51,217 nucleotides of DNA. It comes from Alphaproteobacteria bacterium. Its GTDB lineage: Bacteria; Pseudomonadota; Alphaproteobacteria; RF32; CAG-239. Positions within the stretch are counted from its first letter, which is position 1; each line of letters opens with the position of its first letter. This document shows positions 81 through 51,217 of the stretch, piece after piece. The position numbers were made by a program, and so were the translations under genes. The notes below the pieces were generated by a model that was given only the letters and a program-made list of their open reading frames with translations, was not told the origin of the DNA and made no database searches. The stretch is from the NCBI GenBank assembly GCA_017626035.1, contig JAGAJR010000009.1, positions 1 to 51,217 of the forward strand, read 5' to 3'.

Positions 81-629
81 CTAGGCATTTTTTAGTTCAA
101 GTTCCTGTTGTAGTACGCTGTAGATGCGTTGCACTTTGTCAAACTTGACCACAGCGTCTGGAGCTTTGTTGCAGTCTGGATGATACTTCAAGCACAACGA
201 ACGGTATGCAGCTTTCAGTTTTTGTGCTGTGAGCGTTTCTGGTGTCAAGCCGAAAATGCGGTAATAAGCGGCAAGGTTTATGCCTTGCTGTTGCTTTTTT
301 ACCTTTTCACGATTGCAATGTTGCTGCCACCATTCTTCAAAGATTCTCTGCTGATCTTCATCAGTTTTTCCGAAAGCCTCCGTATTCTGTCGGATTTTCT
401 CTTTGATGTTTTTCAGCATTTCTTCGGCTTGCCGGATTGTTTCTTCGGTATTTTTGATGGCTTGTTTTCTTTCCTCCTCCGCATGTTTTCTATTCTCGTA
501 CAGGTGTTGGAAAATTTTAGCAATCAGCTCTTTTTCTTCGAGCTTTTTTTGTTTGTCTTTCATAGTAACCCAAATACATCCCCCAGCACATAATATTACT
601 ACCGGTAGGAAAATAAATAATACTTCCAT
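81..629 (-). CDS. Membrane-anchored J-domain protein
   Basis: 182 aa. Residues 1-22 form one hydrophobic segment, likely a membrane anchor. Residues 25-115 are highly charged and probably coiled coil. The C-terminus (about 120-178) is a J-domain with the diagnostic HPD at residues 150-152, preceded by the Tyr/Leu-rich helix. J-domains stimulate Hsp70 (DnaK) ATPase activity, so this is probably a DnaK co-chaperone working at the membrane face. It lacks the Gly/Phe and zinc regions of true DnaJ. It stands alone, with a terminator after its stop. The specific client is unknown. Confidence 0.75.
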   Translation of the reverse strand: MEVLFIFLPVVILCAGGCIWVTMKDKQKKLEEKELIAKIFQHLYENRKHAEEERKQAIKNTEETIRQAEEMLKNIKEKIRQNTEAFGKTDEDQQRIFEEWWQQHCNREKVKKQQQGINLAAYYRIFGLTPETLTAQKLKAAYRSLCLKYHPDCNKAPDAVVKFDKVQRIYSVLQQELELKNA

Positions 630-886
630 AAATACACAATATTTTTTTTATTACTATATCAATTATAGCATTTTTACGCTTTTTGTCAAAATTTTTTGTA
701 GGAAAATCATTTTCAGCGATATTACTGCAATGATTGGTTATAATTGGCATAAAGGTTTATGGAATTTTTATTGATTTAATCTGTTTAGTGATGATAAAGG
801 GGATAATAGGGATATTTTTCCAAAATCTGTTTGTCTTAATTGTTTTTATCGGGTAAGTTTTGTAAAGATGAATAAGAGGGGCAGTT
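630..886. other. Intergenic region between two divergent genes
   Basis: 257 AT-rich bases separating the J-domain gene (minus) and hydE (plus). They should hold both promoters. I could not pick a convincing -35/-10 pair or an FNR-type palindrome. An AGAGGGG ribosome site lies just before the hydE start at 887. Confidence 0.4.
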
Positions 887-1927
887 ATGTTTAAAATGAC
901 TGAAGTTTTAGAAAAAGCAATAAAGACGCATTCTTTGGAGAAAGAAGATATTGTTTTTTTGTTAGGAAATCAATCGCAGGAGCAAGACTTATTTGCTGCA
1001 GCCGACAGGGTGAGAAAGCAATTTGTGGGTGATGAGGTTCATTTACGCGGGTTGATTGAATTTTCCAATATTTGCAAGAACAACTGTTTATACTGTGGCA
1101 TTCGTCGGGATAACAAGCAAGCTCAGAGATATCGTTTACAACCGGATGAGATTATTGCTTTGGCGTCTCAGGCGAAAAACTATGGTTTTGGCACGGTGGT
1201 TTTACAATCCGGAGAGGATTTATATTTTACTCCGGAGAAAATGGCTTATATTGTTTCTAATATTAAAAAATTTGATGTTGCAGTTACGCTGAGTATCGGA
1301 GAAAAGATGTATGAGGAATACAAAGCCTATAAGGATGCCGGAGCAGACAGGTATTTAATTCGTATAGAAACGACAGACAAGGACTTGTATCATCGTTTGG
1401 ATCCGGGTATGAGCTGGGAAGAGAGAAAAGAATGTTTGGTAAATCTGCGAAAACTCGGTTATGAGGTAGGTTCCGGAATTATGGTGGGACTTCCCGGACA
1501 GACGAATGAATCAATTGCCGATGATTTGATATTTCTCAAAGAGATGGATATTGACATGGCCGGAATCGGTCCGTTTATTCCGCATCCCTGCACGCCTTTG
1601 GCTAATGAGGAGGGGCGAGCATTTAACTTGTCTTTGCGGACAATGGCGGTTATGCGTCTGCTTATGCCGGATATTAATATTCCGGCAACAACGGCTATGG
1701 AAAGTTTAAATCCCCAAGGGCGAATTATTGCTCTTCAGGCCGGAGCCAATGTTATTATGCCGAATGTTACCGATAAAGAATATCGGGATTTATACGAATT
1801 ATATCCCGGTAAGCCGAATGCTGGAGAGTCTTCTTTGGCAGAAAGGAGCCAGATTTGTGAAAAGATTTTGGCAATCGGCAGAACCATCGGAAAAGGATAT
1901 GGCGGACATAAACGGGTTTGCCTTTAA
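887..1927 (+). CDS. hydE: [FeFe]-hydrogenase H-cluster maturase HydE (radical SAM)
   Basis: 346 aa, the usual HydE length. The radical SAM cysteines are C63, C67 and C70 (CxxxCxxC), inside the HydE-typical context ending YCGIRRDN. Further HydE hallmarks are LQSGED, DRYLIRIET, the GLPGQT loop, GIGPFIPHP and IPATTAM. HydE works with HydF and HydG to build the diiron subcluster of [FeFe]-hydrogenase. The start is supported by AGAGGGG seven bases upstream. Oddly, neither hydF, hydG nor a hydrogenase gene is nearby; hydE is monocistronic with its own terminator. BioB and PylB share the fold but lack this motif set. Confidence 0.9.
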   Translation: MFKMTEVLEKAIKTHSLEKEDIVFLLGNQSQEQDLFAAADRVRKQFVGDEVHLRGLIEFSNICKNNCLYCGIRRDNKQAQRYRLQPDEIIALASQAKNYGFGTVVLQSGEDLYFTPEKMAYIVSNIKKFDVAVTLSIGEKMYEEYKAYKDAGADRYLIRIETTDKDLYHRLDPGMSWEERKECLVNLRKLGYEVGSGIMVGLPGQTNESIADDLIFLKEMDIDMAGIGPFIPHPCTPLANEEGRAFNLSLRTMAVMRLLMPDINIPATTAMESLNPQGRIIALQAGANVIMPNVTDKEYRDLYELYPGKPNAGESSLAERSQICEKILAIGRTIGKGYGGHKRVCL

Positions 1928-46749: not shown

Positions 46750-46780
46750 TAAAGCCCGCTAAAAAGCGGGCTTTTTTTGT
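46750..46780. terminator. Bidirectional intrinsic terminator
   Basis: AAAGCCCGCT pairs with AGCGGGCTTT around an AAAA loop, followed by a T-run. It separates the convergent histidine phosphatase and Cys-rich protein genes. Confidence 0.92.
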
Positions 46781-46786
46781 GTTAAT

Positions 46787-47530
46787 TTACATATAATATC
46801 CGTCTTGATATATAACTTGAATACTTGATCCGGTAGGCATTGTTCCGCTGCTTTTATAAACGGTTTGAGCTTTTCCGTTATTATAGCGAATGACGATATA
46901 TTCTCCCGATTTTAAATCTACATTATTGAGGTTTAAGCCATAAGCTGTATCTTTCATGGATGAATTTGCGGAGTTGCATATACCAGCATAAGGGCCTACG
47001 TCAACAACGGCATAACCATCGTTATTTACTTGTTTTGTGAATTCTGAGAGCGAAGGTTGATAAGGTCCGGCCAGAATGACAATCATTTTTCCGGAGCTTG
47101 TGTCCCAAGTTCCTGAACCTAAGATACCCTGTTCTCTGGCAGCATAGCTAAAAATATCCTGCATTCCGAAACCGTTGTCATGTTTTCCGCACTTATCAAT
47201 AAGTTCGGACAGTCCGCCCATATCTACGCCGTAGATTACACAAGAGGTGTTACGAGAACCGGTATAGAGTGATAATTTTTCGGTCCAAGGATATTTTCCT
47301 CTAGGCATAAAGCCATCGGGACAGGAAGGGGACGCACAGTATTTGTAGTAAGAGTCAAAAGGGCAGGTAAGTGTCGGGACATTCTTACAGTCGGAAGATC
47401 CGTAAACATATCCGAGGCTTTCACAGGTAGGCTGTTCGCCACAGGTTTGGGCGGAAGCGGTTGAGACGGCCAAGGAGAAAGCGAGTATTGAAAGGCTAAT
47501 CCCCATTTTTATTTTAGTAATTTTATTCAT
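46787..47530 (-). CDS. Secreted protein with Cys module, unknown
   Basis: 247 aa with a clear signal peptide (1-27, cleavage after ASA). Residues 30-75 are Cys-rich and contain the module shared with the next two genes (C36, C48, C56-P, C65). The remainder (about 85-247) is Gly/Ser/Tyr-rich with few cysteines and beta-like segments. GGAG precedes the start. It is the last gene of a three-gene cluster of secreted proteins. Family and function are unknown; a surface or periplasmic role is inferred from the signal peptide and paired cysteines. Confidence 0.65.
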   Translation of the reverse strand: MNKITKIKMGISLSILAFSLAVSTASAQTCGEQPTCESLGYVYGSSDCKNVPTLTCPFDSYYKYCASPSCPDGFMPRGKYPWTEKLSLYTGSRNTSCVIYGVDMGGLSELIDKCGKHDNGFGMQDIFSYAAREQGILGSGTWDTSSGKMIVILAGPYQPSLSEFTKQVNNDGYAVVDVGPYAGICNSANSSMKDTAYGLNLNNVDLKSGEYIVIRYNNGKAQTVYKSSGTMPTGSSIQVIYQDGYYM

Positions 47531-47547
47531 AATCTTTCTCCTTAGAT

Positions 47548-48360
47548 TTAATTTTTAGGCATGATTTTCATGAATTTGCATTTCCACGAACAATCCTGAA
47601 TATTGGTATATCCGGTGGCACATCCGGTAATGTAATATTTATCGGAACAGTCTTCAAAAGAGCAGGTATAACCGGCCGGGCAAGTAGTGTAGGTTCCGAG
47701 ATTTTCACAATCTTTACAGTTGTCATATTTGGTAATGCCGTTTTCGGTACAAGAATTTGCTCCGACTTCCGGTCCAAGATTACATTCTTTATATTCAGCC
47801 GGGCAGGAACATCCTGTTTTAGAGGCATTGACGACAAGAGGGATTTCACAAGACTTGCAAGAATTTTTTTGAATCCAACTTGGATTTTCATTACGTCCGC
47901 TCCTGCAGAAGTATCCGGCTTTAATGGTGAGCGGGTATTCGTTTTCGGCATTGCAAAGGGTAAGGCTGTCGTTTGCACAGCTGCAAGTATAGTGAGAACC
48001 TTTTTTGTCGGTGCAGCCTTGTGTCGTTGCCAATTTTCCGCAAATACTTTCAATAGTTTCGTTTCCATTCAGCGTAATGTCGTAGAAAGAAGTATCACAA
48101 AGACAATATTTGAAATATTTGGGGTTATTGGGACATCGGCTTGTTTCATCCGGGACATGATTACTCTCACAACTTGTGAGCGTATATCCGGTATCCGTGC
48201 AAAGAGTGTCGGTTTTGAGTCCGGTATCAACATTGGAGAAGTTTAGTCCGAATTCGCTTTTTCCGACATCAACAATGGATCTGACGGAGGCCTCTGTCTG
48301 AAAGCTGCCGGAGAGCAGAAATCCGGCGGAGGCAATCAATAAAATTTTAGCATTAATCAT
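47548..48360 (-). CDS. Secreted cysteine-rich protein, unknown
   Basis: 270 aa from the ATG at 48360 (GAGGTG upstream; the in-frame start at 48378 lies inside the previous gene). Signal peptide to about residue 25, then many cysteines (roughly one in ten residues) from C54 to the end, in patterns such as CPAEYKEC, CPAGYTC and CKDCE that resemble EGF- or growth-factor-receptor-like Cys knots. The shared module spans C54-C86. It is probably exported and disulfide-bonded. It starts 8 bases after the stop of the 946-aa gene, with nearly the same leader sequence. Confidence 0.65.
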   Translation of the reverse strand: MINAKILLIASAGFLLSGSFQTEASVRSIVDVGKSEFGLNFSNVDTGLKTDTLCTDTGYTLTSCESNHVPDETSRCPNNPKYFKYCLCDTSFYDITLNGNETIESICGKLATTQGCTDKKGSHYTCSCANDSLTLCNAENEYPLTIKAGYFCRSGRNENPSWIQKNSCKSCEIPLVVNASKTGCSCPAEYKECNLGPEVGANSCTENGITKYDNCKDCENLGTYTTCPAGYTCSFEDCSDKYYITGCATGYTNIQDCSWKCKFMKIMPKN

Positions 48361-48368
48361 AGCACACC

Positions 48369-51209
48369 TCAGTTCCATTTAGAAAAATCTGTTTCACACA
48401 CGACACAAGCCCCTTCATCTGTTGGGAAAGATTGGTTTGGTGTGGAGGTTATAATGCCATCGTGTTCCAATAATACGACGTCTTCCAGGCGTTTGCAGGC
48501 TTCTTCCGGGGTTTCTGACGATGATGCCTTTATACATAAAGGTCCCATGTCTTTATTACCGGAATAAGAGTAGCTATCCAGTATATATTGAGAACATTCA
48601 ATATTTGTTTGTCCTTTATAGTCTTCATCAAAGCTATGATCTATGCAGTATCTGACTTTGCAGTCATAACATTCAAGTTTTTGACCGCTTTCCTGATAAA
48701 GCTGTTGATTTTTTTGACAGATGAAAGCCGTGTATGAGCACATTTCTTCATCGTATCCTTCTGATGACGCAGAACAATAATTATTGTATTCAGCAACATC
48801 TTGATCATCTTTTTCTCTTAATCCATATAATTTACAGGTAACGTTATCGTAATTGAGTTCCTGATATTCAACCATATCTTTGGCAGTGCCTAATTCGCAA
48901 CTGTCAGATGCAGAGAAGTAAGAATTATTTTTTATTTGTTCGTAGAATGTTTTGCTGCGATTGTTGATGTCTCCTACATAGGTTAATTTTCCGGAAGAAA
49001 AAGTGTTATTATCCGGTTTGGCGGTATGGAAACGATAAAACAGGTTGCTTTTTCCTTTGCCGGATATATCGTTAACCGTTATGTTGAACATTTGAACGCT
49101 TCCGCTGGCATGATAATCGGTTGTAGGTACAATAACCGCTTCGGAAAAAATAGGTTCTTCTTCCGCATTGTAGCCATAAATGGTTAAATTTGACAGGTAG
49201 TTGCCGATAGGACTATAGTTGAACTCATTTTCATCTTTTATCGTATGGAATGTATCATCGTTTACCCTATGAAATGCGGCCGGACGGTTTAGGCTGCCGA
49301 TGAAGGATTCTTTAATAAGGCTAGAGTCTGTATAAGTAGTTGAGGAGCAACGGTAAGAATCTTGTGTAACACCATTATGTTCCTGCCACCAAATATATAA
49401 GGCTTCCTCAAGGTAATAAGCAGAGATGGAAGCATCTGAATAGATGTATATATTATCAGCAATAATTGTACTGTTTATCAGGGTTACACTTCCTTTAATG
49501 TGAATTTCCGGAGCGGTAAGAACAGAGTTGCTTAAAGAGGCTCCTCTTGATAAAACGATTTTGTCAGTTGCGGTTAAGTTGACATTGATAAATGAAGAAA
49601 TCATGCTATCACTCGGACTAACCGGAGTAGTATATGATTTTACGGTTACATTGACCGTATTGGGTTTTTTAGGCTGATTATATAATTCGCCAGGCCTATT
49701 TCCTGTTTGCTCGTTAAAATAAGTTTGAGAAGGTTTTTGTGTTCCGCTCCAGTAGGCCGGAGAAGTAAGAACTACTCCGTAACTGGAATTTGAGTAATCA
49801 ACGTCAATGGATGAACAATTTAAATCTTTTGTCAATACTTCAAATGCCTGACCGGTGAAGAAATATCTGTTTGTGTTAAGATGACTCGTGGATTTTAAGG
49901 TGTCACATTGGCTGATGTTGCCCTTGGTTGGTGAAAATGTTCCTGTAAATGAAGAACAGGCCGGCGTAACACAATAGTTGCCACAAGGGCCAAATGTGGA
50001 AAGCATACCACAACCTTGGAATTTGTTTGTCGACTGTTTGTAAAGTCCGGTCAAGCTTACGTGACTGTCATAAGTCTTGGCGCAGCAGGTTTGATAACCG
50101 TCTTCATAACATGTACCGTAATATTCGTCCAATTCATAATTGTCTTCGCAGATTTTGCATTTTGTGTTTGAATCGTCGGCACATTCTTTGCAGTTTTCAA
50201 CAGAACAGGTGTTTTCAACACAGTCTTTGTAGCAGTTTCTGCCGTAATATTCGGTTTTGGCGCAGGTTTTTCCGTCAGGTTGGGCGTCAAGAAAGCCACC
50301 GTTGTCGCAGGTTGGTTGATAGCAGTTGTCAAAGCATTTTGTTCCGTAATAAGAAACCGGAGTACAAACCTGATTTGTCGGAGGTTCTTTTTTATATCCG
50401 CCGTCAGAGCAGTCTGGCTGTTTGCAATCTGTTTTGCATGTTTGACCGTAATAGGTTATATCCTTACAAACATTGTTTGTCGGAGGTTCTTTGAAATAAC
50501 CTCCGTCTTCGCAGCTTGGCTGTTTACAGCCGGAGTAACAGCTTTTGCCGCAGTAAGAAACCGGAGTTCCTTCTTGGTTTGTCGGGCAGGAAGCACTGTA
50601 ACCGCCGTCTTCACAGGTTTTGTCGGAAACATCCTGATAACAGGTTTTATTGGCAAAGGAAATTTCCGTTCCTTTCTGACAGGATGTTATGGAATCGGAA
50701 TACCCGCCCTCGGCACAAGTCTTGTCCCGGCATTTGTAACAGGTATTTCCGGCTTCGTTTTGATAAGAGGTTTCCTTAACTTGTTCGTCGGAACATTCGG
50801 TTGCAGAATATCCTTCATCGCATTCATCTATGGCATCCCGGCATTTGAAATAAGATTTATTATATGGGCAGAGAGCACTTTCATCCGGAATTTGTCCGTC
50901 CGGACAGACTTTGACATATCCTTCGTCTTTGCATTGGAAATCATCATCCAAATCCATGGAGTTGAAAGATAATATGCCGCAGCTTCCTCCGCCGTTGACA
51001 GAGCAGACGGAAGCAAGTTTAACGCTATTATCCGGATTAGAAAGGGGTATAGGCTTCAGCTCATAGGGTGTGTGTATTTGTGTGTGTAATGCTAAACCGT
51101 GTGAGAATATATCAGACGAATCATAAGTTAATTTAATATCAGAAGCCTGCACATTGCCTGAAATCAGCAGGCAGGTTGAAATATATAATAAATACCTAGT
51201 ATTAATCAT
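48369..51209 (-). CDS. Large secreted Cys-rich repeat protein, unknown
   Basis: 946 aa. Signal peptide to about residue 22. The shared Cys module spans C93-C123. Residues about 163-333 contain five tandem ~34-residue repeats built on C-x-x-GGY/F, PPT, YYG and C...C. A Cys-rich region continues to about 390. Residues about 440-780 have few cysteines and many Asn/Ser/Thr, with beta-strand ladders such as VTLINSTIIADNIYIYSD that suggest a beta-helix. A second Cys-rich part closes the protein. It is likely a surface adhesin or matrix protein; that is inference. No membrane anchor is seen. It heads the cluster within the window; its upstream region is cut off. Confidence 0.65.
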   Translation of the reverse strand: MINTRYLLYISTCLLISGNVQASDIKLTYDSSDIFSHGLALHTQIHTPYELKPIPLSNPDNSVKLASVCSVNGGGSCGILSFNSMDLDDDFQCKDEGYVKVCPDGQIPDESALCPYNKSYFKCRDAIDECDEGYSATECSDEQVKETSYQNEAGNTCYKCRDKTCAEGGYSDSITSCQKGTEISFANKTCYQDVSDKTCEDGGYSASCPTNQEGTPVSYCGKSCYSGCKQPSCEDGGYFKEPPTNNVCKDITYYGQTCKTDCKQPDCSDGGYKKEPPTNQVCTPVSYYGTKCFDNCYQPTCDNGGFLDAQPDGKTCAKTEYYGRNCYKDCVENTCSVENCKECADDSNTKCKICEDNYELDEYYGTCYEDGYQTCCAKTYDSHVSLTGLYKQSTNKFQGCGMLSTFGPCGNYCVTPACSSFTGTFSPTKGNISQCDTLKSTSHLNTNRYFFTGQAFEVLTKDLNCSSIDVDYSNSSYGVVLTSPAYWSGTQKPSQTYFNEQTGNRPGELYNQPKKPNTVNVTVKSYTTPVSPSDSMISSFINVNLTATDKIVLSRGASLSNSVLTAPEIHIKGSVTLINSTIIADNIYIYSDASISAYYLEEALYIWWQEHNGVTQDSYRCSSTTYTDSSLIKESFIGSLNRPAAFHRVNDDTFHTIKDENEFNYSPIGNYLSNLTIYGYNAEEEPIFSEAVIVPTTDYHASGSVQMFNITVNDISGKGKSNLFYRFHTAKPDNNTFSSGKLTYVGDINNRSKTFYEQIKNNSYFSASDSCELGTAKDMVEYQELNYDNVTCKLYGLREKDDQDVAEYNNYCSASSEGYDEEMCSYTAFICQKNQQLYQESGQKLECYDCKVRYCIDHSFDEDYKGQTNIECSQYILDSYSYSGNKDMGPLCIKASSSETPEEACKRLEDVVLLEHDGIITSTPNQSFPTDEGACVVCETDFSKWN
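50211..50723 (-). repeat. Five in-frame tandem Cys/GGY repeats
   Basis: Each unit encodes about 34 residues: Cys, two polar residues, Gly-Gly-Tyr/Phe, often PPT, a Cys, then YYG and a Cys pair. Units 3 and 4 are the most alike; units 1 and 5 have diverged. The repeats lie inside the 946-aa secreted protein. Confidence 0.75.
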
Positions 51210-51217
51210 AGTACACC

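Follow-up and report, generated by a model that had tools for sequence, protein, structure and literature searches.

The window analysed here comprises the entire contig C8 (51,217 bp) of a draft genome of 1.64 Mb in 27 contigs from an uncultured alphaproteobacterium. Close to its right end, three Cys-rich genes, P0003, P0002 and P0001, follow one another on the minus strand (Table 1), and their operon-like order, described as tight in an earlier note on this DNA, is supported. All three frames are intact and have start codons, and the N-termini are hydrophobic with AxA-like ends, resembling Sec signal peptides as judged by eye. No anchor is recognisable in the window proteins. The first ATG of P0002 (48378) overlaps the stop codon of P0003, but alignment with paralogues suggests that translation probably starts at 48360 (MINAKILL...) instead. 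The gap between the end of P0002 and the start of P0001 is 17 bp. On the other side, the contig ends 8 bp upstream of the P0003 start codon, and at this right window end (51201–51217) the final 108 bp recur without a difference at the left ends of contigs C1 and C27, which leaves the sequence preceding P0003 without a unique assignment.

Table 1. Genes and features at the right end of the window (positions in the 51,217-bp window; a dot marks a feature without strand)
Feature	Position	Strand	Description
P0003	48369..51209	-	946 aa with 59 Cys; module between a signal-like leader and tandem Cys repeats (predicted hairpins), then a long C-terminal part
Module of P0003, aa 93–123	50841..50933	-	Leave-out profile 46.4 bits
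Tandem Cys repeats of P0003, ~aa 130–340	50190..50822	-	Two-stranded hairpins in series (predicted)
C-terminal part of P0003, aa 371–946	48372..50099	-	Without detectable relative or Pfam match
P0002	47548..48378	-	276 aa, 26 Cys; constant partner in two-gene cassette
Module of P0002, aa 60–92	48103..48201	-	Leave-out profile 31.7 bits
Conserved C-terminal Cys region of P0002	47584..47811	-	Cassette marker in relatives; alignment A7, family search
P0001	46787..47530	-	247 aa with 9 Cys; carries the tip in the cassette
Module of P0001, aa 36–65	47336..47425	-	CPFD subtype; leave-out profile 17.8 bits
Orphan tip of P0001, aa 70–247	46790..47323	-	Two copies in 152 family genomes
Terminator-like hairpin	46751..46774	.	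Interval between P0001 and a convergent phosphatase gene; consensus scan only

The earlier note had pointed to a single module, C-x3-GY...C...CP...C, shared by the three adjacent reading frames, and the coordinates that it quoted are exact for all three proteins. A profile of 26 other module copies, with the three of the window left out, recognises each of them with the scores given in Table 1, as compared with a best score of 8.5–8.8 bits among 2000 composition shuffles per protein; for none of the proteins did any of the 2000 attain the real score. The spacing, for which coincidence had been considered, also holds in an alignment of 29 copies, where three Cys residues and one Gly are invariant, and one Tyr and one Pro nearly so. 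In P0003 the module is followed by several further tandem Cys repeats. The profile search that had been suggested places the module at 30 sites in the same genome; within the bacterial family it has matches in 116 of 152 genomes, across all 16 genera, and outside the family in only one genome among 289 sampled from the class. The named relatives are the Alphaproteobacteria metagenome-assembled genomes STF2_225 and BRZ_SL__bin119. We propose that the module, which lies close to the N-terminus, is a short connector rich in Cys. The CPFD subtype present in P0001 also heads the target proteins of diversity-generating retroelements (DGRs).

That no described family has this pattern, as the earlier note stated, agrees with our searches. 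The window proteins match no family in Pfam, NCBIfam or PHROGs, and 16 aligned family members gave nothing above noise against Pfam. EGF-like and furin-like repeats had been named as possible homes for the module; the corresponding Pfam profiles match neither the window proteins (E up to 1) nor the 16 family members (E up to 0.1), in searches of a kind that may miss short divergent Cys repeats. The best hit for the module and repeat profiles in a PDB sequence search has an E value of 0.36, and among viral contigs neither P0002 nor the repeat profile found a relative. The protein family is apparently unreported and is large, with a strong expansion in the small genomes of an alphaproteobacterial family that has been little studied.

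Structure prediction, also suggested in the note, was applied to P0003 and P0001. AlphaFold2, provided with a shallow alignment of 16 rows (paralogues plus a single relative), modelled residues 24–345 of P0003 with pLDDT of at least 90 for 214 of 322 residues. In this model the repeats are two-stranded hairpins in series, plausibly forming a rod. For P0001, no usable model was obtained outside the module. In a Foldseek comparison with the PDB and with viral models, nothing reached an E value of 0.001.

About 20 loci in the genome are paralogous to P0003 and share its N-terminal third, many of them at contig ends; whole-protein searches with P0003 in this genome and in relatives return matches almost only to that third. 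Among the paralogues, the copies at the ends of contigs C16 and C17 share 97% identity over 645 bp but have different leaders, those on C10 and C5 agree exactly in their first 84 bp and give no match beyond this point at the thresholds used, and the C11 and C20 copies have repeats that are 89% identical over 536 bp and unlike ends. Leaders are also common to P0002-type and P0003-type genes. From these comparisons, the module genes are mosaics in which leaders and Cys repeats are shared and C-termini are swapped. In the C20 copy (L005), residues 441–546 resemble the Pectate_lyase_5 adhesive domain just below the cut-off (E 1e-4), which would represent another kind of head. Within the 152 family genomes, the tip of P0001 occurs only in the window and in a copy on contig C18, the two being 74% identical.

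The family also bears on the assembly itself. Counting from genome searches and fetched stretches, 32 of 54 contig ends match module-family genes, two of them doubtfully; when these two (C16_L and C25_R, 27–30% identity) are discounted, about 30 of the 54 ends lie inside such genes, which explains the fragmentation of the assembly. The identity between several contig ends spans ~80–140 bp. A mixture of strains could contribute to identical contig ends, yet several paralogues are located well inside contigs.

A conserved gene pair was recognised in relatives, defined as a gene with a P0002-type C-terminal region and, directly downstream, a P0001-type gene headed by the module, and positions 48378–46787 of the window fit this definition. 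The profile of the P0002 C-terminal region (A7) is matched in 35 of the 152 family genomes; G114 has at least 37 copies, G008 has 30 and G112 has 29. When 40 copies were fetched together with downstream DNA, two were cut by contig ends, and in all 38 assessable pairs, from seven relatives (G112, G008, G025, G105, G162, G163 and G097), the P0002-like gene is followed by a module-headed gene (36 by pattern and two by eye). Most of these second genes contain one or two Lcl_C (C-type-lectin-like) domains, and in many sister cassettes the Lcl_C end is a DGR variable region (VR) that departs from the template repeat (TR) mainly at adenines. No window protein matches Lcl_C (PF07603) above the cut-off, and the possibility that the P0001 tip is a diverged Lcl_C was rejected (hhalign probability 0.3%). 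In the window cassette, an orphan domain takes the place of the lectin tip.

In the same genome, the gene at 63958–64719 on contig C9 is a paralogue of P0001 that shares its type of leader and its module but ends in Lcl_C. Next come bAvd and, at the contig end, an adenine-rich repeat; contig C4 starts with what is apparently the other end of such a repeat, followed by an RT gene. We infer that contigs C9 and C4 are adjacent, with the template split across their ends. Over the 61 template bases compared, 24 of which are adenines, template adenines account for 12 of the 13 VR differences of the C9 gene and, in the case of a P0003-type gene on C11, for 9 of 10. By this pattern both paralogues classify as DGR variable proteins, and the C11 gene is a remote target. 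These two are the recognisable targets of the DGR in this genome, and a VR pattern scan of the genome found only the C9 gene. No VR is present in the window, where BLAST with both template ends gave no match. A 224-residue open reading frame on contig C13 (L055, ~265–936, plus strand), without an obvious signal peptide, has an end that resembles the DGR template (WSSIEYSINNSW...NNDVYPVIAF) and is possibly a further or remnant target; this C13 segment is left out of the evidence for adenine bias.

Relatives provide a more extensive view of the targets. All six Lcl_C-bearing DGR targets whose N-terminus lies on the contig (L027, L133, L134, L137, L138 and L151) have the module, that of L151 being recognised by eye, and a P0002-like Cys-rich gene lies upstream in each of the four loci with enough sequence (L027, L137, L138 and L151). 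G112 has two tandem templates and targets spread over many contigs, where mismatches fall at adenines in 17/17, 14/14, 13/13, 14/15, 17/19 and 18/20 cases; other targets are more drifted. Six VRs of G114 together show 88 differences from the template on its contig C17, of which 82 coincide with template adenines. Many dispersed sites with a VR/TR pattern, templates included in the counts, are found in G110 (20), G116 (19) and G022 (23), and none with a reversed control pattern. Because the strict pattern recovers no site in G112, where its 3' part does not suit the template, these counts are lower bounds. Two to five template-like repeats are present in several DGR loci, and three to five in tandem in each of L135, L136, L138, L141 and L145. 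Beside bAvd and RT in two other loci, L143:24–1457 (minus strand; G001) and L147:1349–3736 (minus strand; G090), are proteins with Flagellin_N above the cut-off and an Lcl_C-like stretch, one of which also has Flagellin_C. These are possible DGR-diversified flagellins, and flagellin is known among DGR targets (PMC6642488).

The window genes are probably an operon-like set belonging to a mosaic family of exported display proteins with exchangeable heads, of which the Lcl_C heads are DGR-varied in sister copies. This reading draws on the module, the paralogy, the mosaic structure, the conserved gene pair and the adenine-biased VR/TR differences in the sisters, all of which are directly supported. 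An exported and probably disulphide-bonded Cys-rich stem would present the exchangeable C-terminal heads, with P0003 contributing a rod made up of its tandem Cys repeats and an orphan end, P0002 acting as the constant partner, and P0001 carrying the tip. In sister cassettes the heads are mostly Lcl_C, and many end in a VR that would be written by the DGR in trans. The Lcl_C heads would in this way diversify by point mutation, and heads are probably also exchanged by recombination between near-identical stems. P0001–P0003 would then be located at the cell surface, their heads may bind ligands such as host glycans, other microbes or phage, and head exchange would be adaptive. The suggestion in the earlier note that the three are a set of surface or matrix proteins is plausible. 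We also suggest, more tentatively, that variation could operate in two layers, with whole heads swapped by way of identical stems and leaders, and with one DGR, often with several tandem templates, introducing point mutations in trans into the lectin heads of many dispersed copies; the window would then correspond to a head-swapped state outside DGR control.

The very high Cys content and the tandem hairpin repeats could also be taken to indicate a structural coat or matrix, in which Cys-rich proteins are cross-linked into an outer layer and C-terminal differences are a matter of drift, and such a lattice would suit many co-expressed paralogues. We regard this as unlikely. Wholesale replacement of C-termini behind nearly identical stems, and the occurrence of Lcl_C with DGR VRs at the C-termini of sister copies, favour recognition over a role in a coat; furthermore, assembly is indicated by no tool result.

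It is more improbable still that the window holds silent donors or remnants of decayed DGR cassettes that serve as sequence reservoirs for recombination. Many paralogues with common segments are also seen in gene-conversion systems, and a consensus scan of the region, where the DNA upstream of P0003 lies beyond the contig, found no strong promoter-like site. Against this reading, the three frames are intact, with start codons and signal-like N-termini, and the orphan P0001 tip has been kept in a second intact cassette, that on C18. As for the Cys pattern itself, similar Cys-rich composition can yield similar spacings, but an origin by chance or from generic low-complexity Cys-rich sequence is refuted by the shuffles; a neighbour order, identified with the independent profile A7, that is conserved across genera also speaks against it.

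The hairpin repeats of P0003 have a loose likeness to the Cys-rich ectodomains of TNF-receptor types, which provide the best rows in VIA-align (Z 3.0, rmsd 8 Å, 126 residues) and likewise form an elongated row of disulphide-type hairpins; with no significant Foldseek or sequence match, this likeness is not evidence of kinship. The variable protein on C9 shares its C-terminal domain family with the Legionella collagen-like adhesin Lcl (matches to NF046116 and PF07603), but its NF046116 score is 28 bits against a cut-off of 500, and a Cys-rich module precedes the domain. The likeness to Lcl does not extend to the window copies.

DUF1566 (Lcl_C) is reported to be the annotated domain found most often in DGR targets, and DGRs with multiple targets are already known (PMC6642488). 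Like the DUF1566/Lcl_C variable proteins in that work, paralogues of the window genes have Lcl_C ends and adenine-biased VRs, next to bAvd and RT, whereas the window copies have neither Lcl_C nor VR. In the open-access literature, we found no description of the Cys-rich module, the Cys-rich partner gene and two-gene cassette, the amplification or the orphan tips, and no gut or alphaproteobacterial precedent. A close arrangement is that of Treponema denticola, whose DGR has as many as seven dispersed targets (PMC4891356) and where one RT/template locus serves remote target genes, as it does here. Unlike the T. denticola system, some relatives of the present genome have ~20 or more sites per genome, there are several tandem template-like repeats, and the targets occupy the second position in a two-gene cassette. 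One large survey of DGRs in metagenomes used a method that is, by its own account, blind to remote targets (PMC8144416), and dispersed repertoires of this kind would consequently be under-counted. The present Cys-rich family, with its probable display function, is tied to DGR variation at many dispersed targets.
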